Positions 16,884 to 37,110 of a stretch of DNA of 64,000 nucleotides are shown here, piece after piece (the first letter of the stretch is position 1; the number at the start of each line of letters is the position of its first letter). Source of the DNA: Treponema sp. Its GTDB lineage: Bacteria > Spirochaetota > Spirochaetia > Treponematales > Treponemataceae. The notes under the pieces were generated by a model. That model did not search any database and was not told the DNA's origin. It was given only the letters and a program-made list of their open reading frames with translations. Both the position numbers and the translations under genes were made by a program. Where the stretch lies: the NCBI GenBank assembly GCA_016286535.1, contig JAEESZ010000001.1, positions 124,001-188,000 on the forward strand, in the 5' to 3' direction.

Positions 16884-18668
16884 CTACTGAATCTGAGCTA
16901 CAGCCTGTCCCTGAGCAATCTGACTTCCTGTTGCGGCAAGGAAATGTACTTTTCCGGCAGCACCAGCTTTAATTTCAAGTTCCATTTTCATTGATTCAAT
17001 TATGATAATTGTTGTATCAGGCTGAACGGCAGCACCTTCGTCAACTGCGTAGCGGAGTAAAGTACCTGCAACAGGAGCTGGAACATCTTTAGCACCGGCA
17101 GAAGGAGCGGCAGGGCTTGCAGCGGCAGCTGCTGAAGTTGAACCGGCAGCACCGAAACTTACGTCATAAGAAGTTCCGTTTACAGTAACTTTCATAGAGT
17201 CGCCGGCAGGGCCTGTTGTAACATTGTATGAAGATCCGTTTACGCTGATTGTATATGATGAACCTTTGTTTTCGCCGGCAGGGGCAGCTTCTTTTTTAGC
17301 AAAGGTGCTTGCAGCATCAACTGGTCCCTTAGAGCGCTCAGCAAAGAACTTAGGAGCAACATTAGGGAACATAGCGTATGTGAGAACGTCTTCATCAGAA
17401 CCGTCACCACCAGCTTTCTTAGCTTCTTCAACCATTTTGTCCCACTCTGGAGGAATTTCATCTGCAGGACGACAGGTCATAACCTTTTCCATTCCGTTCT
17501 GTTTAAGAGCTTCTTTTACAAGTTCTGGATCTGCATCTGTAGGGAGTTTACCGAATTTACCTGTAATAAGGTTACGGAAGTCCTGAGTCATTACTTTATA
17601 TGGTCCCATAAGAACGTTCATAACTGCCTGTGTACCAACAATCTGAGAAGTTGGAGTTACAAGTGGAACGTAACCTGCAGCCTTGTGAACTTTTGGAAGT
17701 TCTGCAAGAACAGCATCCATCTTGTCGCCGGCATTCTGCTGTTTAAGCTGACTTTCGAGGTTAGAAAGCATTCCGCCAGGAACCTGTGAAAGAAGAATAC
17801 GGGTATCTGCACCAAGGAAGGCAGATTCAAGTGCTGAATAATGTTTGCGAACTTCGCGGAAGTAAGCTGCAATTTCAAGAAGAAGCTTTGTATCAAGGCC
17901 GGTATCCATATCGGTACTCTTGAGCATTTCTACAACAGTTTCTGTTGGAGAGTGAGAAGTACCCATAGACATAGAAGAAATTGCTGTATCAAGCCAGTCA
18001 GCACCAGCTTCAGCAGCTTTCAAAAGTGTTGCAACAGAAAGACCTGTTGTAGCGTGTGAGTGGATTTCTACAGGAAGATCTACCTTTGCCTTAATTTTCT
18101 GTACGAGGTCATAAGCATCATATGGTTTTAAAAGACCAGACATATCTTTAATACAGATAGAATCTGCGCCAAAGTCTGCATAAGTCTTAGCAAGTTCTGC
18201 ATATTTTTCGTTTGTGTGGAATGGAGTTACGGCATAAGAAATAGCCATCTGAACATCAACTCCAGATTTTTTAGCTGCCTTTGTAGCACATTCCATATTG
18301 CGTGGGTCGTTACATGCATCGAAAATACGGAAACATCCGATACCGTTTTTTGCAGCAGTAGCAACGAATTTTTCTACTACATCATCAGCATAGTGCTTGT
18401 AACCAAGAAGGTTCTGGGCACGAAGAAGCATCATAATTTTGTTGTTTGGAAGGGCTGCATGAAGTTTGCGTAAGCGATCCCATGGATCTTCGTTCAAAAA
18501 GCGGATACAAGAGTCATAAGTTGCTCCACCCCAGCCTTCTATATATTTATAACCAACCTTATCAAGTTTATCGCAGATTGGCAGCATATCTGCTGTAGTC
18601 ATACGTGTTGCGTGAAGACTCTGATGAGCATCACGGATTGCAAGTTCTGTAATTCCAACTTTAGCCAT
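16884..18668 (-). CDS. oadA: Oxaloacetate decarboxylase alpha subunit with C-terminal biotinyl domain
   Basis: 'ITELAIRDAHQSLHATRMTTADMLPI', C-terminal 'IIIIESMKMELEI' biotinylation site. Confidence 0.93.
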   Translation of the reverse strand: MAKVGITELAIRDAHQSLHATRMTTADMLPICDKLDKVGYKYIEGWGGATYDSCIRFLNEDPWDRLRKLHAALPNNKIMMLLRAQNLLGYKHYADDVVEKFVATAAKNGIGCFRIFDACNDPRNMECATKAAKKSGVDVQMAISYAVTPFHTNEKYAELAKTYADFGADSICIKDMSGLLKPYDAYDLVQKIKAKVDLPVEIHSHATTGLSVATLLKAAEAGADWLDTAISSMSMGTSHSPTETVVEMLKSTDMDTGLDTKLLLEIAAYFREVRKHYSALESAFLGADTRILLSQVPGGMLSNLESQLKQQNAGDKMDAVLAELPKVHKAAGYVPLVTPTSQIVGTQAVMNVLMGPYKVMTQDFRNLITGKFGKLPTDADPELVKEALKQNGMEKVMTCRPADEIPPEWDKMVEEAKKAGGDGSDEDVLTYAMFPNVAPKFFAERSKGPVDAASTFAKKEAAPAGENKGSSYTISVNGSSYNVTTGPAGDSMKVTVNGTSYDVSFGAAGSTSAAAAASPAAPSAGAKDVPAPVAGTLLRYAVDEGAAVQPDTTIIIIESMKMELEIKAGAAGKVHFLAATGSQIAQGQAVAQIQ

Positions 18669-20357: not shown

Positions 20358-22070
20358 TTAGTCAATTTTTTCAACAATCTTAATGTTATCGATTAAGAAG
20401 TCTTTCATGTTATGGCCACTAATCTGAAGACCAATTCTACCATTCTGTAAAACATCCATAATAGTTGCTTTCATATGGTATACTTCATCTTTTGATTCAA
20501 TAGTTTTACGTGTCCAGCCATATTTATGAAGGTCATTATCATAAGCCTGTACAGAAACATAAGCTTCTTCTCCAGGTTCTTTTAATGCCTTAATATCGAA
20601 TTCAACTTCGTAGCTTCTCCAGCCAACAATACCAAGTAAAGCAGGATCTGTTAAACAGTAAGCTACATCTTCGCCGTCAACTTCATAATCGCAGGCAATC
20701 TTCAAAGAACCGGCTTCAATTCCTTTTGGTTCAAATGAAATCTGTACAGAAGAATATTCTGTATCTGGCATTGGCTTAAAGGCAGCAAGCATCTTGTTGT
20801 TTTTGAAAACTTCGTTTACAGCCTTGAAAGGAAGACGTTCAAGTTTTCCAACAGGTTTGTTTGCATCCTGTACTAAAGCAACTGCCTTTGGTTCCCATGA
20901 AGCAATAGCTGTAGCAGGAGAGTTTCCTGACCATACAATTTCGCCAAGGAAGCTGTTTACAATGCTTTCGATTGGAGATGTTGTATAAGAAGGATACCAG
21001 CGGCTCTTTTCCATCTGTTCACCAAGAGCAAAGATTTCTTCCGGCCATACTTTTGCACGGTCTTTTGTATCATTTTCGTAAGTTGCTTCAACAACACAGT
21101 CAATGTAAATACCTGCATATTTTTTGTTCTGTGAACCTGCACCAATTCCGTAACCGTCACATTCGTAAATATTTTTGTGTTCTTTGTTGCTTGGTCCAAA
21201 AGGAACAGGAACATAAATAATTTCATCACGGGTATTCTTTAATACGGCAGGAGGATCGTATTCACGTCCCATTACCATAGCTACAGTTCTGCTTGCAAGA
21301 CCATCTGTAATAATAGAGTTATCCTGCTGATACCAGCCGTCATTTTTAGCATTCTGAAGATATACTAAAGCTTCTGTTACTCTCTGATCTTCCATGTTTA
21401 AAGTGATTTTACCCTTTGAGTCGATGTTTGTAAGTGTAACACCGTTTGCATAGAGTAAACCTTCTGTATACCAGTTACCAAAACCCCAGCGGTCAATTGT
21501 ACCAGAACCTGTTGTATCTTTTGTAAGTTTTAATGCTAAAGAACGAAGGTGATCCCAGTCCCATTTTCCAGCCTTCCACAAAGCTAAAGGCTGATCTTTT
21601 TCTGCGATACCCTGTTCATCCATTAATGACTTGTTGTATAAAATAATCCAGTAGTGATCAGAAGTTTTTGCAGATGCAACATAATAGCTGCCTTCATATT
21701 TAAAACAGCCGTCCATAGCATCTTTACTTAAATATTTTGCATCTAAGTTTACATACTGATTGATTGGTTCAAAATAGTGTTTTGTAAAGAATTTTGGGAA
21801 GTCAGCATTTCTTGCAAAACAAACATCAATAGGAGTTCCTGCTGCCATATAAGTAAGAAGTTTAGATTCCAGAGAACCCCAGTCACCCATTACAAAAGTA
21901 ACCTTTCCACCTGTTTTTGCAGTATATTTTTCTGCAGCCTGAACCATAATATCTTTTTTACTGCGTGGGTTTGTACCCGGTCTGAATACAGTGATATTAG
22001 GACTCTCTTTTGCAAATAAACCTGCAACCATCAAACCAAAAATTGCTGCTACAATTCTAGTTTTTTTCAT
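20358..22070 (-). CDS. Extracellular solute-binding protein with C-terminal CBM-like domain (block B)
   Basis: Signal peptide; SBP sequence, then about 150 aa ending 'LQISGHNMKDFLIDNIKIVEKID'; SD AGGAGG. Confidence 0.85.
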   Translation of the reverse strand: MKKTRIVAAIFGLMVAGLFAKESPNITVFRPGTNPRSKKDIMVQAAEKYTAKTGGKVTFVMGDWGSLESKLLTYMAAGTPIDVCFARNADFPKFFTKHYFEPINQYVNLDAKYLSKDAMDGCFKYEGSYYVASAKTSDHYWIILYNKSLMDEQGIAEKDQPLALWKAGKWDWDHLRSLALKLTKDTTGSGTIDRWGFGNWYTEGLLYANGVTLTNIDSKGKITLNMEDQRVTEALVYLQNAKNDGWYQQDNSIITDGLASRTVAMVMGREYDPPAVLKNTRDEIIYVPVPFGPSNKEHKNIYECDGYGIGAGSQNKKYAGIYIDCVVEATYENDTKDRAKVWPEEIFALGEQMEKSRWYPSYTTSPIESIVNSFLGEIVWSGNSPATAIASWEPKAVALVQDANKPVGKLERLPFKAVNEVFKNNKMLAAFKPMPDTEYSSVQISFEPKGIEAGSLKIACDYEVDGEDVAYCLTDPALLGIVGWRSYEVEFDIKALKEPGEEAYVSVQAYDNDLHKYGWTRKTIESKDEVYHMKATIMDVLQNGRIGLQISGHNMKDFLIDNIKIVEKID

Positions 22071-22157: not shown

Positions 22158-23132
22158 CTAGCCTACAAGACCAGATCTTGTAATACTTTCTGTAAAGTAT
22201 TTTTGAGCGAAAATATAGAGTAATAAAAGCGGCATAATGACAACAAAACAGGCTGCTTCAAGAATTGAACTTTCAGCCAGTGCCATATTTTCTGCATTCA
22301 TTGACTCTGCCAGTAAAGACAAACGATCCTGCAAAACAGTTACACCTACCGACAAAGGATAATTATCTACATAGAACATAACTGCAAGGTAATAGTCGTT
22401 CCAGTGCCATACAATAGAAAACAATAAGATTACAATAATAATGCTTCCTACATTTGGAACCATAATTCTTATAAAGGTAGAAAAAGGATTACAGCCGTCA
22501 ACATAAGCGGCTTCCTCAAGTTCCTTTGGCATACCTGAGAAGAACTGACGGATCATGTAAATGTAAAGTCCGGAACGGATTCCTACCCCAGTTGCAGACA
22601 TAATATAGAAAGGCCAGTTTGTATTTAATAAGTTAATACTTACCGCATCTCCATGATTAAAGGGTCTTAAAAGCTGACCAAGATAGAAGAAATCAAAGAA
22701 GTGGAACTTTACATATAAAGGAATAATTATTGTAGAAGATGGAACAATAATTGTAAAAATAAGGCAGGCAAAAAGAAGGTTCTTACCCTTAAAATTAAAG
22801 CGGGAAAAACCATATGCAACCATAAGGCAGACAAAAACCTGCACGATTACAGATGGCACAAGAATTCCGATTGTTTTTAATATGGAATCTTTAAAACCGA
22901 TTAATTCATCTGCGAAAGCAAAGTTACTCATGGTAAGAGTTTTTGGAATCCAGATGATGGTTGGGTCAAGTCTGTCTACAGGTGCTCTGAACGCATTTGA
23001 AAGCAAAAAGAGTACAGGATAGAGCAAAACATATGACATTCCCAGAAGAAAGAGAAATCTGAAAATCTTTACTATTATACTAAGCGATTTATCTGCCAGT
23101 GATTTATTTTTGAATTTAAAACCTTTTGTCAT
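22158..23132 (-). CDS. Carbohydrate ABC transporter permease (MalG-like)
   Basis: 'KELEEAAYVDGCNPFSTFIRIMVPNVGS' loop; paralogous to 2360-3355. Confidence 0.9.
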   Translation of the reverse strand: MTKGFKFKNKSLADKSLSIIVKIFRFLFLLGMSYVLLYPVLFLLSNAFRAPVDRLDPTIIWIPKTLTMSNFAFADELIGFKDSILKTIGILVPSVIVQVFVCLMVAYGFSRFNFKGKNLLFACLIFTIIVPSSTIIIPLYVKFHFFDFFYLGQLLRPFNHGDAVSINLLNTNWPFYIMSATGVGIRSGLYIYMIRQFFSGMPKELEEAAYVDGCNPFSTFIRIMVPNVGSIIIVILLFSIVWHWNDYYLAVMFYVDNYPLSVGVTVLQDRLSLLAESMNAENMALAESSILEAACFVVIMPLLLLYIFAQKYFTESITRSGLVG

Positions 23133-23144
23133 AGTCCACCTGCC

Positions 23145-24053
23145 CTAGTTCAAAGCCTTGTTTACATTTTTAGTAAGTAACACATTAACAAGACCAATAA
23201 TTGCCAAAACAATCACGAAATATACTATAGAAATTGTTGTAGAATAAGCGTAATTTCCCTGCCCTACATAGGTTACAATCATACGCATTACCTTATTGGA
23301 ATAATCCGTAAAGTAATCAATGATGGAATAAATTACAGTTGTTACGATTGTTGGAGAAATCATAATGAATGTAATTTTCCAGAAGGTTTCCCATTCTGTA
23401 GCACCTTCAATTCTTGCAGCTTCGTACATAGAATCCGGAATTGAGTGTAAAGCAGATAATAATAGAAGAATCTGTACACCACTTTTCCAGGTAAGGTCAA
23501 ATACGGCTCCTACGGTTGAAGTAATAATTTTTACCACCTGGGCATTCAAACCAGATTTAATTAAAACTTCATTTATAAGACCAGTCTGAAAGAGGGTTCC
23601 GGCCTGTCCGTTTGTTCCGGAAAGAACATTTTCCCTTAAAATTGTAATTACAACTCCGGAAGAAATAATTACCGGTAAGAAGAAGATTGAACGCATCATT
23701 GTTCTTCCCCTGAAGTCATTGCGCAGTAAAAGTGCAATAAAAAGGCTGAAGAAAACAATGATTGGAACCTGATACAAAATATTTAAGGTTGAATCTACAA
23801 TTGCACGGGTAAAATCAGGGTCTACGGTAAAGGCTCTTACATAGTTGTCCAGACCGCAGAAATCCATTCTTAAACCGGCACTTGTAATGTTCATTTCATT
23901 AAAGGTATAGGTAAAAGCTGTAATAAGAGGCACTGCAAAGAAACAGATAAAACCTAACAGCCAGGGAGCAATAAATACGTATCCCCAGCGTGACTGTCTT
24001 TCAATAAGTCCAGCTTTTTTACTTTCTTTCTTTATTTTCTTATTTTTTTCCAT
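23145..24053 (-). CDS. Carbohydrate ABC transporter permease (MalF-like)
   Basis: 'SMYEAARIEGATEWETFWKITFIMISP' loop; paralogous to 3348-4283. Confidence 0.9.
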   Translation of the reverse strand: MEKNKKIKKESKKAGLIERQSRWGYVFIAPWLLGFICFFAVPLITAFTYTFNEMNITSAGLRMDFCGLDNYVRAFTVDPDFTRAIVDSTLNILYQVPIIVFFSLFIALLLRNDFRGRTMMRSIFFLPVIISSGVVITILRENVLSGTNGQAGTLFQTGLINEVLIKSGLNAQVVKIITSTVGAVFDLTWKSGVQILLLLSALHSIPDSMYEAARIEGATEWETFWKITFIMISPTIVTTVIYSIIDYFTDYSNKVMRMIVTYVGQGNYAYSTTISIVYFVIVLAIIGLVNVLLTKNVNKALN

Positions 24054-24055
24054 AA

Positions 24056-26296
24056 CTAGTTCCTTCCTACCGCAAACGAATATGGGGCGGCTGTAAGTCC
24101 TTCTTCAGTAACTTCCTTATCAGAATAATTGGTAAGGATTTTTGTACCATCTTCGTAAATAGTAATTCTGGCCCCGTTTTCAAAAACCTTGTGACCGGTT
24201 ATTGTTTTTCCACTAAGCTTTTCAAGAATATCTTTTACAGCCTTATAGTTTTCTACCGATTCTTCCAGCCAGTCCTCTGCATAGGCAAAGGAATAAGACT
24301 GAAGACGGGAATCTCTTAATTCGTCCTGATTTTTTGTAATCCACAAATAAGAAATATCTGAACCTGTTTCCAGAAGCTTGAGTAAATAAGTTTCATTATC
24401 CAGTGACTGGTTTGCACTAAGATTTGAGAAAGGAATATATCCCTTAATTACAATCTGATAGAAAGGTACAGAATAGTTTTCAATTTCAAAATCACTTGAT
24501 CTTACCGGAGCATCTGTAATGTAAGATACTGACGAAAAGGCATAATAAAAAGGACGGCTTAAAAGCAAAGGATTTGTATTTGCTGTAGAAGACAAAAGCT
24601 CTTCGAAGCCTGCAGCAGTCTGATCTCGGGAAGAACCATTGTTTCCAAAATCTGAGCCGACATTATTTCCAAGGGAGTCTAAAGCAAGGCCGTTTCCTTC
24701 GTATTTTTTAGAGAACTTCTTAAGGAACTTCTCGTAAAACTTCTTTACAAAAGGAAGTCGGAGCATCCAGTAAGAATAATTATCTGAACCTGTTTTTTCG
24801 TCAAAGGTAGACATGCGGTAATCAGGGATTGTAACCGGAGACTTATTTATCTGGCGGTTAGCAGAAAGCTCTTTAATATGTTTTAAGTCTGTCTTATAAA
24901 CATTTACAAAATCTGCACCAAGATAAAAATCTGCTGTCTTTTCTTTAAGGAAGCTGATTAAAGATTTTAAGCCTCTTTTACCACCAAGACTTTTTGCAGG
25001 AACAGGTTTTGAAGGATATTTTCCAAATAATCCGCCGTTAATCCAGCCGTCATATTTTACAACAAAGTTTTCTACCCCCTGGTCTTCCAGTTCTGTTACA
25101 ATTTTTGTTACATCTTCAAAAGGGGTAAAAGGAATATTTACTCTGGAAGGGAGTCCAAAAACTGCCTTCTTTTTTGTACCGGCGCCAATAAAATTAAGGT
25201 TCATAGAAAAATCTTTGTCAGTTTTTTCTACAGGGAAGAGATCCTTATCCTGTAAGTATTTTCTATATTTATTAGCCATGCCGACATAATCATTTTCGTT
25301 CTTATCGAGAAAGATATATCGTACAGAATAATAATCCTTGCAGTTTGGCATATCTCTTTTCTGGAAAATACTGATGTTTCTTGGAGTTCCGGTTCTTTCG
25401 CGGAAGGTAAAGGTATCTACATCGCGGATAATACACTTTGAGTTTACATTATTGTAAGAAGTCATCTGGCCGGAAGTTGAAGCCGACACAATTGAGTTAG
25501 ACCTGTTTTCTTCTACAACTGCAATAAAGCCTGCATTTTCGCGGCTAAGGCCAAAGACCGGAAGATATACATCTTCTACGACAGTTTTTTTCATGGCAGG
25601 GACAATAGATTTATCTCTTCCATAAACATACTGTGAATAAAGACTTGAAGATTTATTATTATCAAAATTAATGATGGCTCCGCTACCGTCCGGAACAAAA
25701 ATAAAGCCCTTCTCTCCCTTAGGAGCAGCACCAAAATATGGAAGGAGTGTAATATCCAGAAGACGTAAAACTCCTAAAGTACTTTCAGGATCTTCTTCCT
25801 CTTCTTCAATTTCATCAAAATAGAATTTTACAACCAGACTGTCATCTTCGAGACTTACATGCAAAGGAATAAAAAAGCCGTCTCTTTTGAAGTTGTGATT
25901 TAATACAAAACCATCATCTTCTCTTTCTACCCTGAAACCGCCCCTTACAACTGCATTCATATAAGAGTTGGCAGGATAAAAAGATCCCTTACTGTCTTTT
26001 GTATTAACCTGCATAAGAGAAGCAAGGGCATTTTTATTATAACCTGAAGCAAAATCATCAGATTCCCAGTCTAAAGGAGATGAATACCATACATAACCGG
26101 AAGCCTTTACTCTTACGGCAAAAACTGCCCTTTCTTTATTTAAGTATAATTCAAGACTTTTACTTGAGTTATAAAACTGGAAGCCCTGACTTTCCAGAGT
26201 ATCAGGGGTCCAGTATGCTGAGTCTGTAAGAGCAAAAAGACCCGAACAAAGTAAAAACAAACCAGATATAAGTATTAATGCTTTCTTAATTTTCAT
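24056..26296 (-). CDS. DUF5696-like secreted protein (block B)
   Basis: Paralogous motifs 'GFIFVPDGSGAIINFDNNK', 'VKYDGWINGGLFGKYPS', 'VPFYQIVIKGYIPFSNLSAN'. Start moved from 26356 to 26296 (MKIKKALILISGLFLLCSG signal peptide). Confidence 0.7.
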   Translation of the reverse strand: MKIKKALILISGLFLLCSGLFALTDSAYWTPDTLESQGFQFYNSSKSLELYLNKERAVFAVRVKASGYVWYSSPLDWESDDFASGYNKNALASLMQVNTKDSKGSFYPANSYMNAVVRGGFRVEREDDGFVLNHNFKRDGFFIPLHVSLEDDSLVVKFYFDEIEEEEEDPESTLGVLRLLDITLLPYFGAAPKGEKGFIFVPDGSGAIINFDNNKSSSLYSQYVYGRDKSIVPAMKKTVVEDVYLPVFGLSRENAGFIAVVEENRSNSIVSASTSGQMTSYNNVNSKCIIRDVDTFTFRERTGTPRNISIFQKRDMPNCKDYYSVRYIFLDKNENDYVGMANKYRKYLQDKDLFPVEKTDKDFSMNLNFIGAGTKKKAVFGLPSRVNIPFTPFEDVTKIVTELEDQGVENFVVKYDGWINGGLFGKYPSKPVPAKSLGGKRGLKSLISFLKEKTADFYLGADFVNVYKTDLKHIKELSANRQINKSPVTIPDYRMSTFDEKTGSDNYSYWMLRLPFVKKFYEKFLKKFSKKYEGNGLALDSLGNNVGSDFGNNGSSRDQTAAGFEELLSSTANTNPLLLSRPFYYAFSSVSYITDAPVRSSDFEIENYSVPFYQIVIKGYIPFSNLSANQSLDNETYLLKLLETGSDISYLWITKNQDELRDSRLQSYSFAYAEDWLEESVENYKAVKDILEKLSGKTITGHKVFENGARITIYEDGTKILTNYSDKEVTEEGLTAAPYSFAVGRN

Positions 26297-26307
26297 CCTG
26301 CTGCCCC

Positions 26308-28404
26308 CTACATTCTCATCATAATTTCCTGCGCAATGGTTGCAATAAAGGACCATAACTGCGCAAAGAGCGAAACAAAAAGCATACCAATTAAAATTAC
26401 AAGGAATGCACCAAGCAAAGTTAATAACATGGAACCGACAGTTTTATTCATTGTGTACTGATGGGCAGATTTTGTTGCCAGAAGCAGCTGTACAAGGCCC
26501 CAGATTTGAACAAAAGCAACTATAATATTCATAAAGAAAGCTTCATCTGCAGTAATAACATTGCTTATAATAATTACAGGAATGATGGTTATAAGATATG
26601 TCATTCTTGTATAGGCAAAGTTAATCCAGATTTCGCGGAAAGTTCCCTTTCCATCCTGTAAAGTACACAAAGCCCAGTTTGTAACACTCCACAAAATTGC
26701 AAGTCCCCAGGTTGAAGCCATAATAATAAAGATATTCATATTATCAAGGCGGTTTTTATTAAAAATAAAACCTTTGCACTGGTATTCAAAAACTTCTGCT
26801 ATGAGCCATAAAAGAATAATTATGTTTGCAATCATTACAGAACCTTTTGTTTTATGTTCAAGTTTAAATTCTTCCCAGCCCTTGAAAGGATGCAAAACAA
26901 GATAGAATGGATAATACCATTTACTTATTTCGTATACGTGCTGAATTTCCTTCTTTTTACCGTATTTTGCCTTTAATGGAGGCAGAACAAAAATTGCAAG
27001 GAGGATTGCAAGAAGAATAAGCATTAAGCCGACAAAGTATTTACGTAAAAAGGCTGTTCTGTATTCATGGAAAGAATCTGAATAAGCTGCATGATATTCA
27101 GCCTGTTTATAATAATCCATTGCCTTGTCGTATTCTTTAAGTCTTTCGTAAGCCCGGCCAATTCCCCTTAAAACAATAAAATTATTTCTGTCCATCTTAA
27201 GGGCTTCGAACCATGGTTCAAGGGCATCTTCAAAATAGCCCTGCTCGTAAAGATTTGTTGCTTCTATTAAAGCGGCACCAAATCTTGTAGTTTTAAAACA
27301 GGTAATAGAATTACGCACATTGTCTAAAACAAAAAGTTTTCCGTTTGAACTTACAATATCAACAGGATTTTTAAAGGAACCTTCCTGGTTTCCGGTTCCA
27401 CCAAAAATTGTAAGCAGGTTACAAGACTGGTCGTAAACAAAGATACGGCCGCGTTCACTGTCCAGACAGGAAATAAAATTATCCTTATCTACATCAACTG
27501 CAACAAGATTTGTTTTTTCTACCCTGTTTGTATAGGTGTTTTCAAGATCTCCAAAGAAAGCTAACTCCGGCTTTTTACCCTTAAAGAGAATATTCTGAGA
27601 AAGAGGATTTAATTTTCTTATCTGACCTTTCTGATAGTTATCTCCATAGTTAGAAACTGTGTAAATAAAACCTTCACTGTCTATATCAAAATTTACATAT
27701 TCAACAGGAACATAACGGTACATTCGGTCCCTCTGTTCCTTTGTAGTAAATTTTCGCCAGATACGGTCTGAACGGAGCTTGCTTGTTACGTTTACCTTAT
27801 TTGAACCAAAGAAGCCGAGGAAGTCGCCGTTTTCGTCAAAGGTATAGGCACCTTCATAGCAGCCCATGGAAAGAACATAAATTACTCCAAGGTGGTCAAC
27901 AAGAACCTTATCGGGAATAAATTCTGTCTGTTCATCAATAAGATCTGTAACAGGTTTTATGATTGAACGCAGATAATTTCCATCATTATCAAATATTAAA
28001 ACCCTTTTATTACCGCGGTCACAAACATAGATTTTTCCATTGTCTGCAAGGTACATTCCCCGGCAATCTTTTATCTGCTGATTATCTTTCTGTAAATCAA
28101 TTAAACGAAGAAGATTTAAGTCTGAATCAAAAACAACAATGCGCTTGTTACCTGAATCAAGAACATAAATATTTCCATCAGCATCTGTAGACATATCCAT
28201 AGGATTTAAAAAATCACCTATTCCATAATCTGATGCTGTAATAAATTTCTGAACTTCGTAAGCTGCAGGAGCCGGAATAGAAGTATCCCATACACCATAG
28301 TTATAAGAAAGCCATGGAACAGGAGCTGCTTCCGGAGCAGATGCAAAAAGCCATGAAGTAAAAACTGAAATCAATATTAAAAAACTAATAAAAAACTTTT
28401 TCAT
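26308..28404 (-). CDS. NHL-repeat/TPR protein fused to a Yip1-family membrane domain
   Basis: 698 aa: NHL units 'GNIYVLDSGNKRIVVFD', TPR, TM, then 'YYPFYLVLHPFKGWEEFKLE...' and a C-terminus aligning along its length to the stand-alone 6976-7653 protein. Confidence 0.82.
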   Translation of the reverse strand: MKKFFISFLILISVFTSWLFASAPEAAPVPWLSYNYGVWDTSIPAPAAYEVQKFITASDYGIGDFLNPMDMSTDADGNIYVLDSGNKRIVVFDSDLNLLRLIDLQKDNQQIKDCRGMYLADNGKIYVCDRGNKRVLIFDNDGNYLRSIIKPVTDLIDEQTEFIPDKVLVDHLGVIYVLSMGCYEGAYTFDENGDFLGFFGSNKVNVTSKLRSDRIWRKFTTKEQRDRMYRYVPVEYVNFDIDSEGFIYTVSNYGDNYQKGQIRKLNPLSQNILFKGKKPELAFFGDLENTYTNRVEKTNLVAVDVDKDNFISCLDSERGRIFVYDQSCNLLTIFGGTGNQEGSFKNPVDIVSSNGKLFVLDNVRNSITCFKTTRFGAALIEATNLYEQGYFEDALEPWFEALKMDRNNFIVLRGIGRAYERLKEYDKAMDYYKQAEYHAAYSDSFHEYRTAFLRKYFVGLMLILLAILLAIFVLPPLKAKYGKKKEIQHVYEISKWYYPFYLVLHPFKGWEEFKLEHKTKGSVMIANIIILLWLIAEVFEYQCKGFIFNKNRLDNMNIFIIMASTWGLAILWSVTNWALCTLQDGKGTFREIWINFAYTRMTYLITIIPVIIISNVITADEAFFMNIIVAFVQIWGLVQLLLATKSAHQYTMNKTVGSMLLTLLGAFLVILIGMLFVSLFAQLWSFIATIAQEIMMRM

Positions 28405-28412
28405 TTTGCCCC

Positions 28413-29321
28413 CTAATCCTTAATACCAGATGTTGCCATGGTTTCAATTACAGACCGCTGACATAAAGAGAACATTACAACAGGCGGAATTAAAAGAACC
28501 AGCATAACTGCAGATGAAGCACCTGCATATACCAGACCACTTGCCTGAATCTGAGGAATTATTGAAGGCAATACTTTCAGATTTTCTTTATAAAGATAAA
28601 GGTTTCCGTTGTTTGCCCAGATATTCTGGAAGGCGAAAATCATAAGGGTAAGCCAGGCTGGTTTTACAGTTGGCATTACAATCTTCCACCAGATGTACAT
28701 TTCTTTTGCACCGTCAATTCTGGCTGCTTCCAGTAAAGACTGTGGAAGCTGGGTCATAAACTGACGCATAAGGAAGGTTCCAAGTGTCATCTGTACGGTT
28801 GGCAGAATTAAAGCAAGGTGATTATTTACCAGGCCCAGTTTTGCAATAATAATATACTGAGGAATATACAAAACCTGAGGGGTAAAAAGCAGGGCATCTA
28901 CAATTATTTCGTTGATGATTTTTTTACCCTTAAAGTTATGTAAGGCTAGAGGATATGCTGCCATACTTGAAACTATGATATTTCCTGCTGTTGCACAGAA
29001 AGTAACAATAATTGAGTTGAACATATAGCGGGAAAAAGGAACCCACATGTTGGCAATTATTTGAGAAAGCTGGGTAAAGTTATTTAATGTTGGATGCCTT
29101 GTAAATAATTTTGGAGGCATTACGAACATTTCTCCAATTGGTTTGAAGGAGTTAATAATGATAATCCAGATTGGGAAAATCATAAAAATTGCAAGAAGGC
29201 CCAGCCACAAAAATAAAAGAAAGTCTACAGTTCTTGAGCGGTTTGCTTTAGCGGCTCCCCTGTATTTGAAGATTCGTGTGAATATCTTTTTTGCTTTTTC
29301 TCTTTTAGTCATTTGCGCCAC
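28413..29321 (-). CDS. Carbohydrate ABC transporter permease (MalG-like)
   Basis: 'QSLLEAARIDGAKEMYIWWKIVMPTVKP' loop; paralogous to 9127-10020. Confidence 0.9.
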   Translation of the reverse strand: MAQMTKREKAKKIFTRIFKYRGAAKANRSRTVDFLLFLWLGLLAIFMIFPIWIIIINSFKPIGEMFVMPPKLFTRHPTLNNFTQLSQIIANMWVPFSRYMFNSIIVTFCATAGNIIVSSMAAYPLALHNFKGKKIINEIIVDALLFTPQVLYIPQYIIIAKLGLVNNHLALILPTVQMTLGTFLMRQFMTQLPQSLLEAARIDGAKEMYIWWKIVMPTVKPAWLTLMIFAFQNIWANNGNLYLYKENLKVLPSIIPQIQASGLVYAGASSAVMLVLLIPPVVMFSLCQRSVIETMATSGIKD

Positions 29322-30249
29322 TCCTCAAGAATTTTGTGATTATCTTATTCATAAGAAGCATGATGATAAAAAGCACTACAGATAAGGTACAGGCATAGCC
29401 CATTTCAAAGCGGACTGTACCATAGTCAATAATGTAAGTACCGATGGTATCGGCCGCGTAACCACGGGAAGGGAAACCTGCAACAGATTTAACAACTTCG
29501 GAAACACCAAAAGAAGCGGCAATCTGCATTACGGCACCAAATAAAAGCTGAGGTTTCATGGAAGGAATTGTAATGTACCAGAGTTCCTGCCAGCGGTTTT
29601 TTATACCGTCAATACGACCTGCTTCGTACATACTTTTATCAATTCCCTGAAGACCTGCAATAAAGGAAAGGAAGCCCGCACCAAAAGAAAGCCATACCTG
29701 AACTAAAAGAACAACTTTAAGAACGTAATCGGTATTACCAATCCAGTCGATTGGCTCCTGAATAATTGCAAGCTTCATAAGCCAGCCGTTTAAGTAGCCG
29801 TAGTAATCGCCTGAGAAAACAATAGTCCAGGCATAGAAGATATTTCCTGCAAGTGATGGAGCATAGAAAATTAAAGTCCAGATAGAACGAACTACCGGCT
29901 TATATTCATTAATCATCCAGGCCAGAAGGAAGGAAAGAACATAACTTAAAGGTCCTGTAATAAAGGCAAAAACCATTGTATTTTTAAGAACCTTAAGAAA
30001 TATTTTATCATCCAGCATAAGGCGGATATAATTACTGAAGCCTACAAACTTTGGCTTTTGAAGCATATCAAAACTTGTAAAACTAAAGTAAATTGAGCAC
30101 AAAATCGGTAAAACTGTAAAAACAGTAAATAAAATTAAAAAAGGAGCCAGCATACCATATGCAGAACGGGTCTGCCAGTCACGTTTGTCTATAGTTTTAG
30201 AAATCTCAATAGGAGCATTTTCTAAATCAATATCTCTATTAATCTTCAA
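29305..30249 (-). CDS. Carbohydrate ABC transporter permease (MalF-like)
   Basis: 'SMYEAGRIDGIKNRWQELWYITIPSMKP' loop; paralogous to 10031-10969. Confidence 0.9.
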   Translation of the reverse strand: MKINRDIDLENAPIEISKTIDKRDWQTRSAYGMLAPFLILFTVFTVLPILCSIYFSFTSFDMLQKPKFVGFSNYIRLMLDDKIFLKVLKNTMVFAFITGPLSYVLSFLLAWMINEYKPVVRSIWTLIFYAPSLAGNIFYAWTIVFSGDYYGYLNGWLMKLAIIQEPIDWIGNTDYVLKVVLLVQVWLSFGAGFLSFIAGLQGIDKSMYEAGRIDGIKNRWQELWYITIPSMKPQLLFGAVMQIAASFGVSEVVKSVAGFPSRGYAADTIGTYIIDYGTVRFEMGYACTLSVVLFIIMLLMNKIITKFLRSGAND

Positions 30250-33106
30250 TTCCTAACTCCTTACGTTTTCGTGTAATTTCTTCATTAATCATGTCGCAGT
30301 ATTTATTAAGGGTTGCGCGAGCATTTTCATTATTGTAATAAGCATCTGTAAAGGCTGTATCGAGCATACGGATTGTATAGTAGCCTCCAGGTACTTCCTG
30401 AATTTCTTTTACTTCTTTCCACTGGGCTTTAAGAATTTCCTGTTCAGAAAGTGACCAGCCCATTCTTTCGAAGGTTTCAAGATTTGCTGTTCCAAGACGG
30501 GCAGAAGTTCCCATTATGGTTTCAATCTGATTAGCATATTTGAGCTGAACATCAGCACTCATCCACCATTTTAAGAATTCCCATCCGGCCTGAGGATTTT
30601 TGATTTTTTTGAACATAACTACAGCAGAACCAGAACCGGCCTCGCTGCGATTTATACTGCCATCTTCCATTCTTGTACCAGGAATTGGACTCATAGCCCA
30701 CTGGTTACGGATTTCCGGAGCAGCAACCGAAAGAAGGTTGTAGTTACCATAAGAAACAATGGCAATTGGCATTTCTCCGGAACGGAAGCGGGTATTAAAA
30801 TCATATTTAAGGGTAAAACCGTAAGCTGCATAAAAATCTACCCACTGCTTAAAGGCTTTATAGGCTTCAGGATCTGTAAGGGCGGTCTGAGTATTGTTAT
30901 TTTTGTAGAAAGAACCGCCGTTCTGACTGAGCAATGTTGGGAAGAGGTTTCGTGAACCCATTCCGGCATCAATCAAATCGATTGCGTCTACAGACTGGTA
31001 AGGTAAACCTACCTGCATATTGTTACGCTGTAAAATTGGAATAATCTTATATAAATCTTCCCAGGTCTGAGGAGGCTCAAGGCCAAGTTCCTTAAGGATA
31101 TCTGTACGATAGAACATCATGTGGAAATCCTGGGTCATAGGAAGAGCATATACCCCACCCTGGAATTCATAAGGAATTAAGGCAGTTGGATTATACCAGC
31201 TTCTTACAGAATCAAAATCTTCAAAAGTTGAAAGATCATAAAGAGCATTTCGGCTGGCAAGATTTACCGGCTGACCTCTTGAAGTATTAATTGCAATTTC
31301 AGGACCTCTTCCGGCCATGGTTGCTTCGATAATACTACCCTGTACAAGGCTGAGATTAATTTTTATTCCGGTTTTAGGAGTAAAATCGTTAATAATCATG
31401 TTACGAACGATATTTGCCTGTTCACGACCAGCTGCAATCCAAACGGTTACAGCTTCTTTTTCCTGTTTACCAATGCTGTCATAATCTTCTACAAAGGAAG
31501 CAAAGAAGGAAGCAATATTCATCCATATTTTCTGGAAGATATTAGCCTTTGCCCTCTGAGCCTTCTGGTCAGGACTAACAAGAGAAATATAATCAACTTC
31601 GATTGGAATTTCCTTTCGGTACAAAATCCATGAAGAAAGACTTACAATGTTGTCGCTGAAATTACTGAGTTTATTAGGAATATATTCAGGCTGCTTTACA
31701 AAGCTTCTGAGCTGATTTACTACGATTCTTAGGGTTGCTGCTTCTGAACCAGACTGACCGGTAATTGCTTCAAAATCATCGGCAACTTTTTCAAAGCGGT
31801 CTGCATATTCACTAAGCTTTGGCATAAGGCCTGGAATTTCTTTATCGAGATTATAGTCGCGGTATAAGTCTGGTTCGCTACCCATAATCATAATAAAGCG
31901 TCTGCGTACTGCATTAAGTTCTGCAGTAAGATCATCAACTGCTGTAAGAATTGGAGTTAATTTTCCTAAGGAAGATTCAAGTTTTACTGTGTGAAGGCCT
32001 TTTTCAAGGTAAACAAGACAAGGCTTTCCTTTTGAATCTTTTGGAGTGTACTGTCCCCAGTTCAAGGAATAATCAATTTCAAGACCCTCAAATTCCTTAC
32101 AAGGAATCTTTCCGTCTATATAAAGCTTTCTTGTAGCAGCAGAACCTCTCTGGAAATTCTGTCTTGCCTTAATGTAAATATTGTAATAACCGGATTCAGG
32201 CGCTTCTATCTGCCATTCAATCCACTGGCCCGGGAATTTCCAGGTCCAGGAACCACCAATTGTATTAAGTCTGATTTTTGAAGGACTTGCAGGTTCACTT
32301 GCCGCATCAGAACGGTCAGAAGTTGGAACCAGTGTTGAATCAGATTTTCTGTAAGCTTTTTCTGCCTGCACTTTTACATAAGTTTTTACAGGGTTATTTT
32401 CTTTTTTATAGTTATAAGAAGTTGATATTTCTTCGTAAGAAGGCAAATCTTCCTGGTTATAAATATGAATTGAATCTAAAACCAGAGCTTCTCTGTGAAG
32501 TTCGAGCGTAAGTTTATGCTGTCCCTTAGTAAAATAAACCGGAAGATTTTTATTATAAAAACCCTGAGTGTCTAAAAAAGCAGCCTTTGTCCACTCAAAT
32601 ATTTCTTCCTGTTCAGGAACAATATCATTTCCATTTTCGTCCTGGCGGATATCATAAGAATCCTTCCAGATTCTGTTAAAGCGTACACTGCGGAAATCAT
32701 CATAAGGATAATCTCCATCAACTTTAACACCGAATTCAATATTCATCCCCTTGTATCTGAGGGGGATGTAGTCTATTGCAAGGTGATAAAAACCTTCCTG
32801 AGGAATATTTACCACCCAGTCCACACTTCCCTTTTCTCCTGTCCAGGAAAGTACATCATCTTTTCCTTCATAAGATTCAAGGACAGCAAGTTCTGCCTCT
32901 TTTGAAGAAACAAAAGAAGTTGCCTTTACACTTATGTCATTTATTGGAAAATCTGCTTTGCCATATTTTTGTTGATAATCATTGATTGAATTACCAGAAG
33001 ACCAGCGGAGAACCTGTTTTTCTGTTCCGGCCTGAGCAAAAAGAGGCGAAAGCAACAAAGACAGACCTGTTGCAAGAAGGATTCCTGCACTTTTTCTTTT
33101 AAACAT
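30239..33106 (-). CDS. Giant extracellular solute-binding protein with N-terminal CBM-like domains (block B)
   Basis: Same architecture as 10980-14036. Start moved from 33178 (TTG) to 33106 (ATG, MFKRKSAGILLATGLSLLLSPLFAQA signal peptide, AGGATGG SD). Confidence 0.85.
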   Translation of the reverse strand: MFKRKSAGILLATGLSLLLSPLFAQAGTEKQVLRWSSGNSINDYQQKYGKADFPINDISVKATSFVSSKEAELAVLESYEGKDDVLSWTGEKGSVDWVVNIPQEGFYHLAIDYIPLRYKGMNIEFGVKVDGDYPYDDFRSVRFNRIWKDSYDIRQDENGNDIVPEQEEIFEWTKAAFLDTQGFYNKNLPVYFTKGQHKLTLELHREALVLDSIHIYNQEDLPSYEEISTSYNYKKENNPVKTYVKVQAEKAYRKSDSTLVPTSDRSDAASEPASPSKIRLNTIGGSWTWKFPGQWIEWQIEAPESGYYNIYIKARQNFQRGSAATRKLYIDGKIPCKEFEGLEIDYSLNWGQYTPKDSKGKPCLVYLEKGLHTVKLESSLGKLTPILTAVDDLTAELNAVRRRFIMIMGSEPDLYRDYNLDKEIPGLMPKLSEYADRFEKVADDFEAITGQSGSEAATLRIVVNQLRSFVKQPEYIPNKLSNFSDNIVSLSSWILYRKEIPIEVDYISLVSPDQKAQRAKANIFQKIWMNIASFFASFVEDYDSIGKQEKEAVTVWIAAGREQANIVRNMIINDFTPKTGIKINLSLVQGSIIEATMAGRGPEIAINTSRGQPVNLASRNALYDLSTFEDFDSVRSWYNPTALIPYEFQGGVYALPMTQDFHMMFYRTDILKELGLEPPQTWEDLYKIIPILQRNNMQVGLPYQSVDAIDLIDAGMGSRNLFPTLLSQNGGSFYKNNNTQTALTDPEAYKAFKQWVDFYAAYGFTLKYDFNTRFRSGEMPIAIVSYGNYNLLSVAAPEIRNQWAMSPIPGTRMEDGSINRSEAGSGSAVVMFKKIKNPQAGWEFLKWWMSADVQLKYANQIETIMGTSARLGTANLETFERMGWSLSEQEILKAQWKEVKEIQEVPGGYYTIRMLDTAFTDAYYNNENARATLNKYCDMINEEITRKRKELGIED

Positions 33107-33273
33107 TTTTATCCATCCTGTAGTTTTGAATAATCCCTTACCACTTTTTAGGATATATCCAAACTTAAAAAATCGCAAGAAAATTCTGCCTTAATTTAAG
33201 CATTTTTAAGTAATTTTTAACATTTTTTTAATCTGTTTTATTAACTAATAAATTAAAATTGTAACTTTTTTTC

Positions 33274-33334: not shown

Positions 33335-33940
33335 ATGAAAAAAGCACTTGCTGTTTTAGTTTTAACAGCTATGGTTTTACCAGCCCTTGTTGCAAAGGGT
33401 CCAAAATTACCAAAAGCTTTCAAAGGTATTAAAGTTCCTGCAGATTATGTAGAAATGACAATTCCAGAAGGTGAAGTTATCGTTATGGATGACTTTGAAG
33501 ACGGTTTGTACTGGGACAAGACAGGCTGGCCAAATGATTTTGTAGCGGGAGTTACACTTTCATCAGACTGGGGTTCAAACGGACCAAATTCTTTAAAAGT
33601 TACCTATTCAGAACAGCCTGGCGGAGACAAGGGAACAATTACCTGTACATCTCCATTAGAAACAGACTGGACCGGAGCTAAATATGTTGTATTAGACATT
33701 GGAAATGCAAGCAATGCCCCTGTTGATTTAGTTGTAGTACTTCAGACAGGTGAAACCTGGATCTGGACACAGACAGACCCAATCCGCTGCCCTGCCGGAA
33801 TCCACTCTCTTGTATTTGATATTTCAAACTTCCCTAATCTTGAAATCATCGATCAGTTGTTTATCTGCTGCGTAAACTGGGAAGGCGATACATCTCCAAG
33901 CGGAAGCTTCTACTTAGACAACTACCGCATCATCAAATAA
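33335..33940 (+). CDS. Small secreted CBM-like beta-sandwich protein
   Basis: Signal peptide; 'VIVMDDFEDGLYWD...SSDWGSNGPNSLKV...SFYLDNYRIIK'. Confidence 0.65.
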   Translation: MKKALAVLVLTAMVLPALVAKGPKLPKAFKGIKVPADYVEMTIPEGEVIVMDDFEDGLYWDKTGWPNDFVAGVTLSSDWGSNGPNSLKVTYSEQPGGDKGTITCTSPLETDWTGAKYVVLDIGNASNAPVDLVVVLQTGETWIWTQTDPIRCPAGIHSLVFDISNFPNLEIIDQLFICCVNWEGDTSPSGSFYLDNYRIIK

Positions 33941-33961: not shown

Positions 33962-34576
33962 GTGAGGAAAAAAATGAAAAAACTTATTTCAATTGCTTTA
34001 ATTGCATTACTTTCAACAAGCGTTATGTTTGCAAAACCTAAAAAGGTAAAGGCTCCAAAACTTGTAACAATTGACCTTCCAAAAACAAACATGCTTCTTC
34101 TTGACAATTTTGAAGACGGAAACTACTGGTACGGTGTTGGAAACTCATGGGATCAGTGGGGATCTCACAACCTTTCATTAACAGCAACAACTTCATCAGA
34201 CTGGGGTACAGACGGCCCTACTTCTTTGAAATGTACAAATGAACCTGCCGGAGCTAACACTTCAAAACAGGCAACCTGGTGCTGTAACTCACCTATAGAA
34301 ACAGATCTTTCTGCTTACAACTGGTGTGCTGTTGACGTATACAATCCTGGAACTGATAACTACAACCTTTCAATTGCCGTTCAGAATGGTGATGACTGGG
34401 CATGGGATCAGAGCCCTGCAATTTTAGTTGAACCAGGTGCAAAAACTGTTTTATTTGATCTTTCAGCTTTCCCAGATGCACACCTTGCAAACGTTTTCTG
34501 CTTCATGATTCAGTCTATTGATATCGAAACAGAAGCAACTTTAGTATATTTTGATAACTTCCGCTTATTTGAATAG
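33962..34576 (+). CDS. Small secreted CBM-like beta-sandwich protein, tandem paralogue of 33335-33940
   Basis: Signal peptide; 'LLLDNFEDGNYWY...SSDWGTDGPTSLKC...VYFDNFRLFE'. Confidence 0.65.
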   Translation: MRKKMKKLISIALIALLSTSVMFAKPKKVKAPKLVTIDLPKTNMLLLDNFEDGNYWYGVGNSWDQWGSHNLSLTATTSSDWGTDGPTSLKCTNEPAGANTSKQATWCCNSPIETDLSAYNWCAVDVYNPGTDNYNLSIAVQNGDDWAWDQSPAILVEPGAKTVLFDLSAFPDAHLANVFCFMIQSIDIETEATLVYFDNFRLFE

Positions 34577-34593: not shown

Positions 34594-34628
34594 TAAGGCT
34601 GCCCTTTACAAAAGGACAGCCTTTTTTT
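34594..34628. terminator. Rho-independent terminator between convergent genes
   Basis: AAGGCTGCCCTTTacaaAAGGACAGCCTTTTTTT. Confidence 0.8.
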
Positions 34629-35748
34629 ACTTTAAGAAGGCAGTAAGTTTTTCTGCTGCAAGTTTATGAGTTTTTGGACCGGGATGACCGCGGCTTCCCT
34701 TATCCTCATTGTTTTTTTCTACATCTTCCATTGCATCAAGTTCAAGGGCAAAAACATTAGAATCAGAATTTTCATTTTTGAACTCATCAATTCCCTTAAG
34801 AATGTAAGGAGGAAGGGTCTTTAATTTAATCATTCCCCAGACCCAGATAATTTTTGCAGAAGGATTATGTTTTCTTATAAGGGCAAGAAATTCTTTTACC
34901 CCCTCTTTGACTCTGTTGCCGCTTTCTGGCAGGGCAATCTCCTTTTCATCTTTAAAAAGCAGATTTTCTTTTCCGTCAGAATCTTTCCAGGCAGGCTGAA
35001 AAAAGGCCCCGTTATCGTTTGTACCAAGATTTACAACTACAAGGTCTGCAGGTCTTTTAAAATCATAAGAATCCTGAGCCCCCAGAGCTTTCTGATAGTC
35101 ACCAAACATTAAGGAACAGACGTTTTCATAATGACGAAGCATGGAAGAGTTTGTGTTTCCGTCCCAGCCCCATTTAATGCCCCAGCCGCACTGACTTAAA
35201 ACGCTCCAGTCGGCATCAAGGGCTCTGGCAGTCTGCCTTGCATAAGTTTTACTTGCACAGAACCACTGGGGAATCCACTCCATTTCGTCAGGAGAGCCGC
35301 AGAGGCCTTCTCCACTGGTAATGGAATCTCCAATAAACTCTATCATAAGTTTTCTTTCTTTAAGCGAAGTGAAGCTTCCCTGGTCATCAAGGCCGATTCC
35401 ATTTATAAAAAGGGAATGTTTTTCATCCCCGCTCATAGCCTGGGTATCTTTTATAAGGCTTATAAGATTATCTTTCTGTGGATTAAGATTTCTTGCAAGG
35501 CAAATCCAGCCTTCTTCTTTTGGAACAATAAATCTTGAAACCTGAACTCCGTTAATTTCAACTGCAAGCCAGCATTCAGAAGTGGAATAATCAGAAGAAA
35601 GATTTACCCATACATCTTTTGCATGTACACATACTTCGAGGGCAGATGCTCCCCAGAACAAGGCAAGTCTTTCCTGCTTTTCTGCATCCTTTACATTTCT
35701 ACCTAAAATACGTTTGTATTCAATTTTATTAATTTTAAAAGTTTTCAT
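34627..35748 (-). CDS. CE2-like two-domain SGNH carbohydrate esterase
   Basis: N-terminal beta domain then 'IEFIGDSITSGEGLCG', 'VVNLGTNDNGAF', 'GHPGPKTHKLAAEKL'. Confidence 0.75.
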   Translation of the reverse strand: MKTFKINKIEYKRILGRNVKDAEKQERLALFWGASALEVCVHAKDVWVNLSSDYSTSECWLAVEINGVQVSRFIVPKEEGWICLARNLNPQKDNLISLIKDTQAMSGDEKHSLFINGIGLDDQGSFTSLKERKLMIEFIGDSITSGEGLCGSPDEMEWIPQWFCASKTYARQTARALDADWSVLSQCGWGIKWGWDGNTNSSMLRHYENVCSLMFGDYQKALGAQDSYDFKRPADLVVVNLGTNDNGAFFQPAWKDSDGKENLLFKDEKEIALPESGNRVKEGVKEFLALIRKHNPSAKIIWVWGMIKLKTLPPYILKGIDEFKNENSDSNVFALELDAMEDVEKNNEDKGSRGHPGPKTHKLAAEKLTAFLK

Positions 35749-35859
35749 AAGTGAATTATAGCACTCTTTTATAAGATAAAATAGAAATTTTTGACAGTTA
35801 AACGTTTTTATTTAGTTTATTTTTACTTAATTTTTATCAGCTTTTTTACTTAAAAAAAC

Positions 35860-35888
35860 TTGACAATTAATAATCCGGGCATTAATCT
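35860..35888 (+). promoter_or_regulatory. Predicted promoter of the GH130 gene
   Basis: TTGACA-17 nt-TAATCT, SD 'aggagaa' before the ATG at 35924. Confidence 0.55.
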
Positions 35889-35923
35889 ATAAGCATAGTT
35901 ATTTATTCAAATAGGAGAAAATT

Positions 35924-36970
35924 ATGGCAAAAATCATTAGTGGCGGTAATTTACCAAATATTCCTTGGCAGGACAAACCTGCTGACTGCTGGCTTCCAAT
36001 CTGGCGTTATGACGAAAATCCTGTAATTGGACGCAACCCATTCAAAGGCATGGGTCGTATTTACAACTCGGCAGTTATTCCTTGGGAAGGAAAATTCAAG
36101 GGAGTATTCCGTTCAGAAGACACTTCTGCCCGCCCATTCCTTTATATTGGAGACTCAGAAGATGGTATTCACTGGGAATTCCAGAAAGAAAAGATTCACA
36201 TGCACGATCCAGACGGAACTCCACATGACCCATTCTATGCTTATGACCCACGCTGTGTAAAAGTTGAAGATACCTATTATATCCTCTGGTGTGGTGATTT
36301 TGACGGAGCTTCTATTGGTGTTGCTACAACTAAAGATTTCAAAGATTTTACCCGTCTTGAAAATCCATTTTTGCCTTTTAATAGAAACGCTGTTTTATTC
36401 CCAAAAAAGATTGACGGAAAATATGTAATGCTTTCACGCCCATCTGATTCAGGACACACACCATTTGGTGATATTCTTCTTTCTCAGTCTCCAGATATGA
36501 AATACTGGGGAGAACACAGACTTGTTATGCAGAAAGGCGGACAGGGCTGGTGGCAGGGAGTAAAAATTGGTTGCGGACCTGCACCAATCGAAATTGAATA
36601 CAAAACTCCAGAAGGAAAAAACGAAAAAGGCTGGCTCATGTTCTATCATGGAGTTGCAACAACCTGTAACGGATTTGTATACTCATTCTCTGCAGCTATT
36701 CTTGATCACGAAAAACCTTCTATCGTTCGCTACCGCTGTGGTGATTACATGCTTACTCCAGAAATGCCTTATGAAACAACAGGTTTCGTTGATAATGTAT
36801 GTTTCCCTGTAGCAGCTCTTACAGACGAAAAAGACGGAAAAATCGCAATCTACTACGGCTGCGCAGACACAGTAGTAGGTCTCTGCTTTACAACTGTAGA
36901 CGAAGTAGTAAACTTCACCCTTGCTCACAATGAATTAGGATATTGGGACAAGGACGAAGGCCGTTTCTAG
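35924..36970 (+). CDS. GH130-family glycoside phosphorylase (beta-mannoside/mannooligosaccharide phosphorylase-like)
   Basis: 'NPVIGRNPFKGMGRIYNSAVIPWEGKFKGVFRSED', 'YDPRCVKVEDTYYILWCGD', 'GWLMFYHGV', 'IYYGCADTVVGLCFTTVDEVV'. Confidence 0.88.
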   Translation: MAKIISGGNLPNIPWQDKPADCWLPIWRYDENPVIGRNPFKGMGRIYNSAVIPWEGKFKGVFRSEDTSARPFLYIGDSEDGIHWEFQKEKIHMHDPDGTPHDPFYAYDPRCVKVEDTYYILWCGDFDGASIGVATTKDFKDFTRLENPFLPFNRNAVLFPKKIDGKYVMLSRPSDSGHTPFGDILLSQSPDMKYWGEHRLVMQKGGQGWWQGVKIGCGPAPIEIEYKTPEGKNEKGWLMFYHGVATTCNGFVYSFSAAILDHEKPSIVRYRCGDYMLTPEMPYETTGFVDNVCFPVAALTDEKDGKIAIYYGCADTVVGLCFTTVDEVVNFTLAHNELGYWDKDEGRF

Positions 36971-36981
36971 AAGACACGTTA

Positions 36982-37006
36982 AAAAAGAATGCGCCAGCAT
37001 TCTTTT
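36982..37006 (+). terminator. Terminator of GH130 gene
   Basis: AAAAGAATGCgccaGCATTCTTTT. Confidence 0.6.
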
Positions 37007-37049
37007 AGTGTCTACCTATTTTTTCTAGAAATTTATAACAAAGATAAAC

Positions 37050-37099
37050 AGGATGAAAAGGATAAGGAAAATCTACTTATGCTTTTCATCCTTTTTTTT
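37050..37099 (+). terminator. Second terminator-like hairpin between convergent genes
   Basis: AGGATGAAAAG...CTTTTCATCCT followed by a T run. Confidence 0.5.
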
Positions 37100-37110
37100 A
37101 TTTTGAAATT

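Follow-up and report, generated by a model that had tools for sequence, protein, structure and literature searches.

Our results indicate that the propeller/TPR and Yip1 proteins belong to a functional unit larger than the two of them, a twin ABC sugar-importer operon that also encodes a DUF5696 protein. We lean towards the view that propeller/TPR and Yip1 form one membrane unit, an accessory subunit dedicated to a twin carbohydrate ABC importer. This unit is covalent in one of the two gene blocks of the window (the whole stretch of 64,000 nucleotides that was analysed), block B, and very probably a two-chain complex in the other, block A. The genes for the unit are as follows.

26308 to 28404, minus strand: fused propeller/TPR–Yip1 protein, 698 aa, block B; a single uninterrupted frame
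6976 to 7653, minus strand: stand-alone Yip1 protein, 225 aa, block A; Pfam Yip1 at 41.9 bits (cut-off 28.6)
7650 to 9122, minus strand: stand-alone NHL/TPR protein with a C-terminal transmembrane (TM) helix, block A; Pfam and homology to the fused protein

A reading made from the sequence only had described one fused gene in block B and two genes with a 4-nt overlap in block A, and the open reading frames and their coordinates bear this out: the block A genes share 7650-7653 (ATGA on the coding strand), and the NHL/TPR gene likely starts with the ATG at 9122, its earliest possible start being a TTG at 9161. The resemblance it had proposed for both halves was recovered by BLASTP, in which residues 479-698 of the fused protein match the stand-alone Yip1 protein (31% identity over 221 columns, E 2e-30) and the N-terminal part matches the block A NHL/TPR protein (31% identity over 457 columns, E 1e-58), so that the split pair covers the full length of the 698-aa protein by homology. 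A lack of significant similarity between the Yip1 parts, which that reading had named as counting against it, is thus not the case. NHL repeats (PF01436, 57.8 and 33.8 bits, cut-off 20) and weak TPRs were found by Pfam in both the fused and the block A NHL/TPR protein. The C-terminal domain of the fused protein, searched alone, matches no Pfam family at E 0.01, Yip1 (PF04893) included, and its name therefore rests on homology to the 225-aa protein; a sequence search of the PDB gave no relatives of the Yip1 domain. Among the shared features listed earlier, the motifs HP..G, NW..TL.DG.G, H.Y...K and a C-terminal E...R stood, being 80-100% conserved at key positions in 82 Yip1 domains, fused and split, with the best-conserved motifs identical between the two forms. 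The helices are not N-rich as had been supposed; there is one invariant N (576), which opens the NW motif.

Scanning species genomes yielded 456 relatives, and the best 80 loci, those most similar to the fused protein, were kept. All of these come from other genomes, and 36 are fused and 44 split, a ratio biased by this choice. In the split loci the spacing between the two genes varies, and the genes overlap or lie close together in most. Split copies in related genomes are intact neighbouring frames, most with the identical 4-nt overlap, which rules out a sequencing frameshift as the origin of the block A split, the other outcome that had been named as damaging to the reading. No relatives were found on viral contigs. 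A copy of the operon that is typically Clostridia-like lies on a contig labelled as the archaeon Methanocorpusculum, which is probably mis-binned (L072).

The fused protein divides into the following parts.

28339 to 28404, minus strand: signal peptide, residues 1-22 (hydropathy, charge, model)
27289 to 28305, minus strand: NHL beta-propeller, residues 34-372 (Pfam NHL, PDB profile and fold matches)
27094 to 27285, minus strand: TPR-like helices, residues 374-437 (weak Pfam TPR, model helices, PDB TPR matches)
26983 to 27039, minus strand: TM1, residues 456-474, the end of a helix continuing from the TPR (model, hydropathy)
26911 to 26982, minus strand: positive low-confidence linker, residues 475-498, predicted cytoplasmic, the point at which block A is split (model, charge)
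26311 to 26892, minus strand: Yip1-like five-TM domain, residues 505-698 (homology to the 225-aa protein, model, motifs)

The AlphaFold model of this protein is fairly confident (mean pLDDT 82.5, pTM 0.73). In it one unbroken helix, residues 438-473, joins the TPR to TM1, and five TM helices span 523-697, beyond the linker. The Yip1 domain is accordingly predicted to have five TM helices with a cytoplasmic N-terminus, as in the Yip1 family, for which five TM helices have been predicted (PMC6682643). The earlier suggestion that the propeller lies outside the membrane agrees with the predicted signal peptide, the one TM helix that follows the TPR, and the strongly positive stretch that comes next. 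This positive charge is present in both forms (a mean of 7.3 K/R against 2.2 D/E after TM1 in fused proteins, and a mean net charge of +3.0 after the TM helix in split propeller proteins), and from it the propeller is predicted to lie outside and the junction inside. Furthermore, the split propeller proteins among the best 80 of the 456 relatives keep their own C-terminal TM helix in 44 of 44 cases. The unit and its predicted orientation, with an outside propeller and a cytoplasmic junction, are well supported. On the same predicted topology, HP..G, NW..TL.DG.G and H.Y...K would lie on the inner face, with the C-terminal E...R facing outwards.

The propeller itself matches NHL propellers in Foldseek (E 7e-17), and PDB profile and fold searches place the sensor PknD among the NHL domains that it resembles. 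It would be tempting to see the unit as a transmembrane sensor, in which the propeller/TPR senses a bound glycan or a loaded substrate-binding protein (SBP) and signals through TM1 and Yip1 to a partner in the cytoplasm, for example the shared ATPase or a regulator. The likeness to the outside sensor domain of PknD, the continuous helix between TPR and TM1, and the predicted inner position of the best-conserved Yip1 motifs are all in keeping with this. However, the propeller–Yip1 protein lacks a signalling domain in the cytoplasm, a signal would need to pass between two chains in the split form, and the gene sits among transporter genes with no adjoining regulator, and we regard a sensor as unlikely.

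The order of the operon is SBP1, permease F1, permease G1, propeller/TPR–Yip1, DUF5696, permease F2 and permease G2, and SBP2 is often present at one end. Both blocks of the window hold the full set, an SBP2-like gene included.

30239 to 33178, minus strand: SBP1, large substrate-binding protein, block B (N-terminal region co-occurs with the operon)
29305 to 30249, minus strand: permease F1, block B (NCBIfam ABC permease families, place in the operon)
28413 to 29321, minus strand: permease G1, block B (Pfam and NCBIfam ABC permease families)
24056 to 26356, minus strand: DUF5696 protein with a GH129-like predicted fold, block B (Pfam, model, fold and profile matches)
23145 to 24053, minus strand: permease F2, block B (homologues at the matching operon place)
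22158 to 23132, minus strand: permease G2, block B (homologues at the matching operon place)
20358 to 22070, minus strand: SBP2, block B (Pfam SBP_bac_1)
10980 to 14036, minus strand: SBP1, block A (Pfam, gene-by-gene locus comparison)
10031 to 10969, minus strand: permease F1, block A (Pfam, gene-by-gene locus comparison)
9127 to 10020, minus strand: permease G1, block A (Pfam, gene-by-gene locus comparison)
4285 to 6972, minus strand: DUF5696 protein, block A (Pfam)
3348 to 4283, minus strand: permease of the second pair, block A
2360 to 3355, minus strand: permease of the second pair, block A
828 to 2246, minus strand: SBP2-like protein, block A (36% identity, E 8e-98, to SBP2 of locus L061)
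57114 to 58235, minus strand: UgpC/MsmX-type ABC ATPase (NCBIfam UgpC subfamily, 468 bits, cut-off 432)

Permease G1 directly upstream and DUF5696 directly downstream flank the unit in 73 of the 80 best-ranked loci. DUF5696 follows in 79 of the 79 whose contig continues (among the best 80 of 456), one of these calls, L046, being a truncated last open reading frame whose start was judged by eye. This locus was at one time a candidate for lacking DUF5696, which was dropped because the truncated frame begins like DUF5696. Permease G1 is not directly upstream in four of the best 80 loci (L044, L046, L053 and L058); L044 and L048 lie on short contigs. Across genomes, strong matches to DUF5696 and propeller–Yip1 occur in the same 15 of 59 relatives, the N-terminal region of SBP1 in those 15 and the incomplete G008, and in 101 genomes around a Paenibacillus 68 of 69 have both propeller–Yip1 and DUF5696 (the exception, G086, has a weak DUF5696 match only), all counts that shared ancestry inflates. 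No clear counter-example to the co-occurrence of propeller–Yip1 and DUF5696 was found among the genomes compared. In SBP1, a protein of about 970 aa, ~590 residues precede the substrate-binding domain; this region has no Pfam match and is confined almost entirely to genomes with the operon.

Each block holds the permease pair and SBP of a CUT1-type importer, and neither contains an ATPase gene, dedicated or otherwise. Many CUT1 systems share an ATPase. The UgpC/MsmX-type protein at 57114-58235 is a possible shared motor of the blocks. Many plant-glycan enzymes (GH43, GH10, GH5 and GH67) are encoded next to the operon, and since glycan-degrading enzymes are its neighbours, the operon most likely serves to take up glycan fragments, the substrates differing between copies.

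The DUF5696 protein is the closest partner of the unit. Its model (pLDDT 85.9) matches the GH129-like DagB (5opq) over the whole chain in Foldseek (E 2e-31, TM-score 0.62/0.71), followed by NagBb and GH101 enzymes. A profile search against 5opq (E 1e-9) and hhalign against GH129 (98.9%, E 2e-17) also connect them, so that DUF5696 is predicted to have the GH129/GH101 glycosidase fold with distant homology. Pfam Glyco_hydro_129 was detected in 0 of 22 members at E 0.1. The GH129 nucleophile is Asp435 of NagBb and Asp486 of DagB (PMC5698469). By remote alignment, the column mapped to it holds D/E in only 9 of 78 DUF5696 members, and the likely acid/base column holds E in 13 of 78; D569, R577, N603 and Y605 are conserved instead. 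Thus, while the whole-chain fold is shared with GH129/GH101, the mapped catalytic columns mostly differ, and most members seem to lack the GH129 catalytic pair. This variability makes an ordinary GH129 enzyme doubtful, and most DUF5696 proteins may be non-catalytic, binding glycans rather than cutting them.

These features also bear on the possibility that the unit is a surface scaffold for glycan breakdown, anchoring a DUF5696 protein that acts on surface glycans, with no direct contact to the permeases. DUF5696 is the tightest partner, with a glycosidase fold, and a few loci have no permeases directly upstream, as such a scaffold would allow. The apparent loss of the catalytic pair, the signal or membrane anchor that the DUF5696 sequences of the window carry themselves, and the permease pairs on both sides of the unit in nearly all loci nevertheless make a scaffold of this kind quite improbable.

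Switching between the fused and split forms has occurred repeatedly. A tree of the propeller/TPR part requires 7 state changes, whether by fusion or by fission, of which well supported branches force at least 4; with shuffled labels about 30 are required. One genome, that of P. baekrokdamisoli (Paenibacillus), has seven fused and two split copies, each adjoining a DUF5696 gene. No locus with only one half, propeller or Yip1, occurs among the best 80 of the 456 relatives. In a Ruminococcus locus (L110:10510-13101), two genes separate the halves, one for a zinc-ribbon protein and one for an SPFH/Band 7 protein that carries a GYF_2 domain, the only sampled locus in which these are non-adjacent. 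The repeated switching, the near-perfect adjacency and co-occurrence, and the compatible topology together support the proposal that propeller/TPR and Yip1 are one functional unit. A neutral origin, in which neighbours with coupled translation are occasionally fused by stop loss and their products do not act together, would fit the close or overlapping genes of most split loci and the several independent switches, but is very unlikely given that no half is found alone in these loci, that the pairing is kept across phyla, and that fused and split forms agree in the predicted membrane side of their junction.

The two blocks are not the products of a recent event. Each block A gene that was compared is closest to Lachnospiraceae loci, with permeases 64-69% identical, whereas L032 (P. 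baekrokdamisoli) or L033 (a Bacillota MAG) is the closest locus for most block B genes, and fused and split copies from the window's genus sit in distant clades of the tree. Recent fission or fusion of a block duplicated in this genome was therefore rejected. Blocks A and B are two anciently separated operon lineages, and so the window alone shows no fusion event.

How might an accessory subunit of this kind work? The glycan-enzyme neighbours and a precedent in Bacillus, where YknW of the Yip1 family modulates assembly of the ABC transporter YknXYZ (PMC4887032, PMC4338810), underlie the accessory-subunit reading. We speculate that the propeller/TPR keeps the DUF5696 protein and SBP1 near the permeases, while the five-TM Yip1 domain would pack on the permeases, perhaps through its inner-face motifs HP..G, NW..TL.DG.G and H.Y...K, and help to assemble or couple the importer complex, much like YknW with YknXYZ. 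A shared UgpC/MsmX-type protein encoded elsewhere would serve as the ATPase. Docking, coupling and direct permease contact are what we infer, and the operon neighbourhood by itself could explain the co-inheritance of propeller–Yip1, SBP1, DUF5696 and the permeases. More tentatively, and with a lower probability than the accessory subunit, the propeller/TPR–Yip1 unit, the mostly non-catalytic GH129-like protein and the giant SBP might together be a new kind of surface docking complex that feeds glycans to two ABC importers simultaneously. If so, Bacillota and the lineage of the window would have a sugar-uptake machine of a distinct class, with a role comparable to that of the Sus complexes of Bacteroidota.

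YknWXYZ is the best precedent, as there too a Yip1-family membrane protein is encoded with an ABC transporter. However, it works as an exporter, contains a MacB-type permease plus a membrane fusion protein, and has no propeller, DUF5696 or sugar SBP, whereas in the operon the MacB-type permease and membrane fusion protein are absent, with BPD_transp_1 permeases and SBPs instead. With CUT1-type importers (MalFGK, MsmX-dependent) the operon shares sets of two BPD_transp_1 permeases plus an SBP, and an ATPase encoded elsewhere; it differs in its two permease pairs, its SBP1 of about 970 aa, propeller–Yip1 and DUF5696. PknD of Mycobacterium tuberculosis likewise carries an outside NHL propeller on a single TM helix, but it has a cytoplasmic kinase where the propeller–Yip1 protein has TPR helices, a five-TM Yip1 domain and no enzyme domain. 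A literature search found nothing relevant on NHL and Yip1 clusters or the operon and no mention of DUF5696 by name; most subscription journals lay outside the search and an earlier description is possible, but the propeller–Yip1 part of a sugar-uptake machine appears undescribed. The operon is carried by Paenibacillus, Lachnospiraceae, Oscillospiraceae and the window's genus, with nine copies in one genome and glycan-degrading enzymes usually adjoining. The fused form offers a single-chain construct for structural studies, and with partners that occur nearly one to one, what a bacterial Yip1 domain does can be tested directly.

Several other features of the window were observed. Beside block B, 34627-38247 encodes a CE2-like esterase, a GH130 and a GH8. 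Just upstream of the block, on the plus strand, lie genes for two similar-looking small secreted proteins of ~200 aa (33335-33940 and 33962-34576). A 120-aa open reading frame on the plus strand at 17224-17586, opposite the 594-aa gene at 16884-18668, is probably not a gene.
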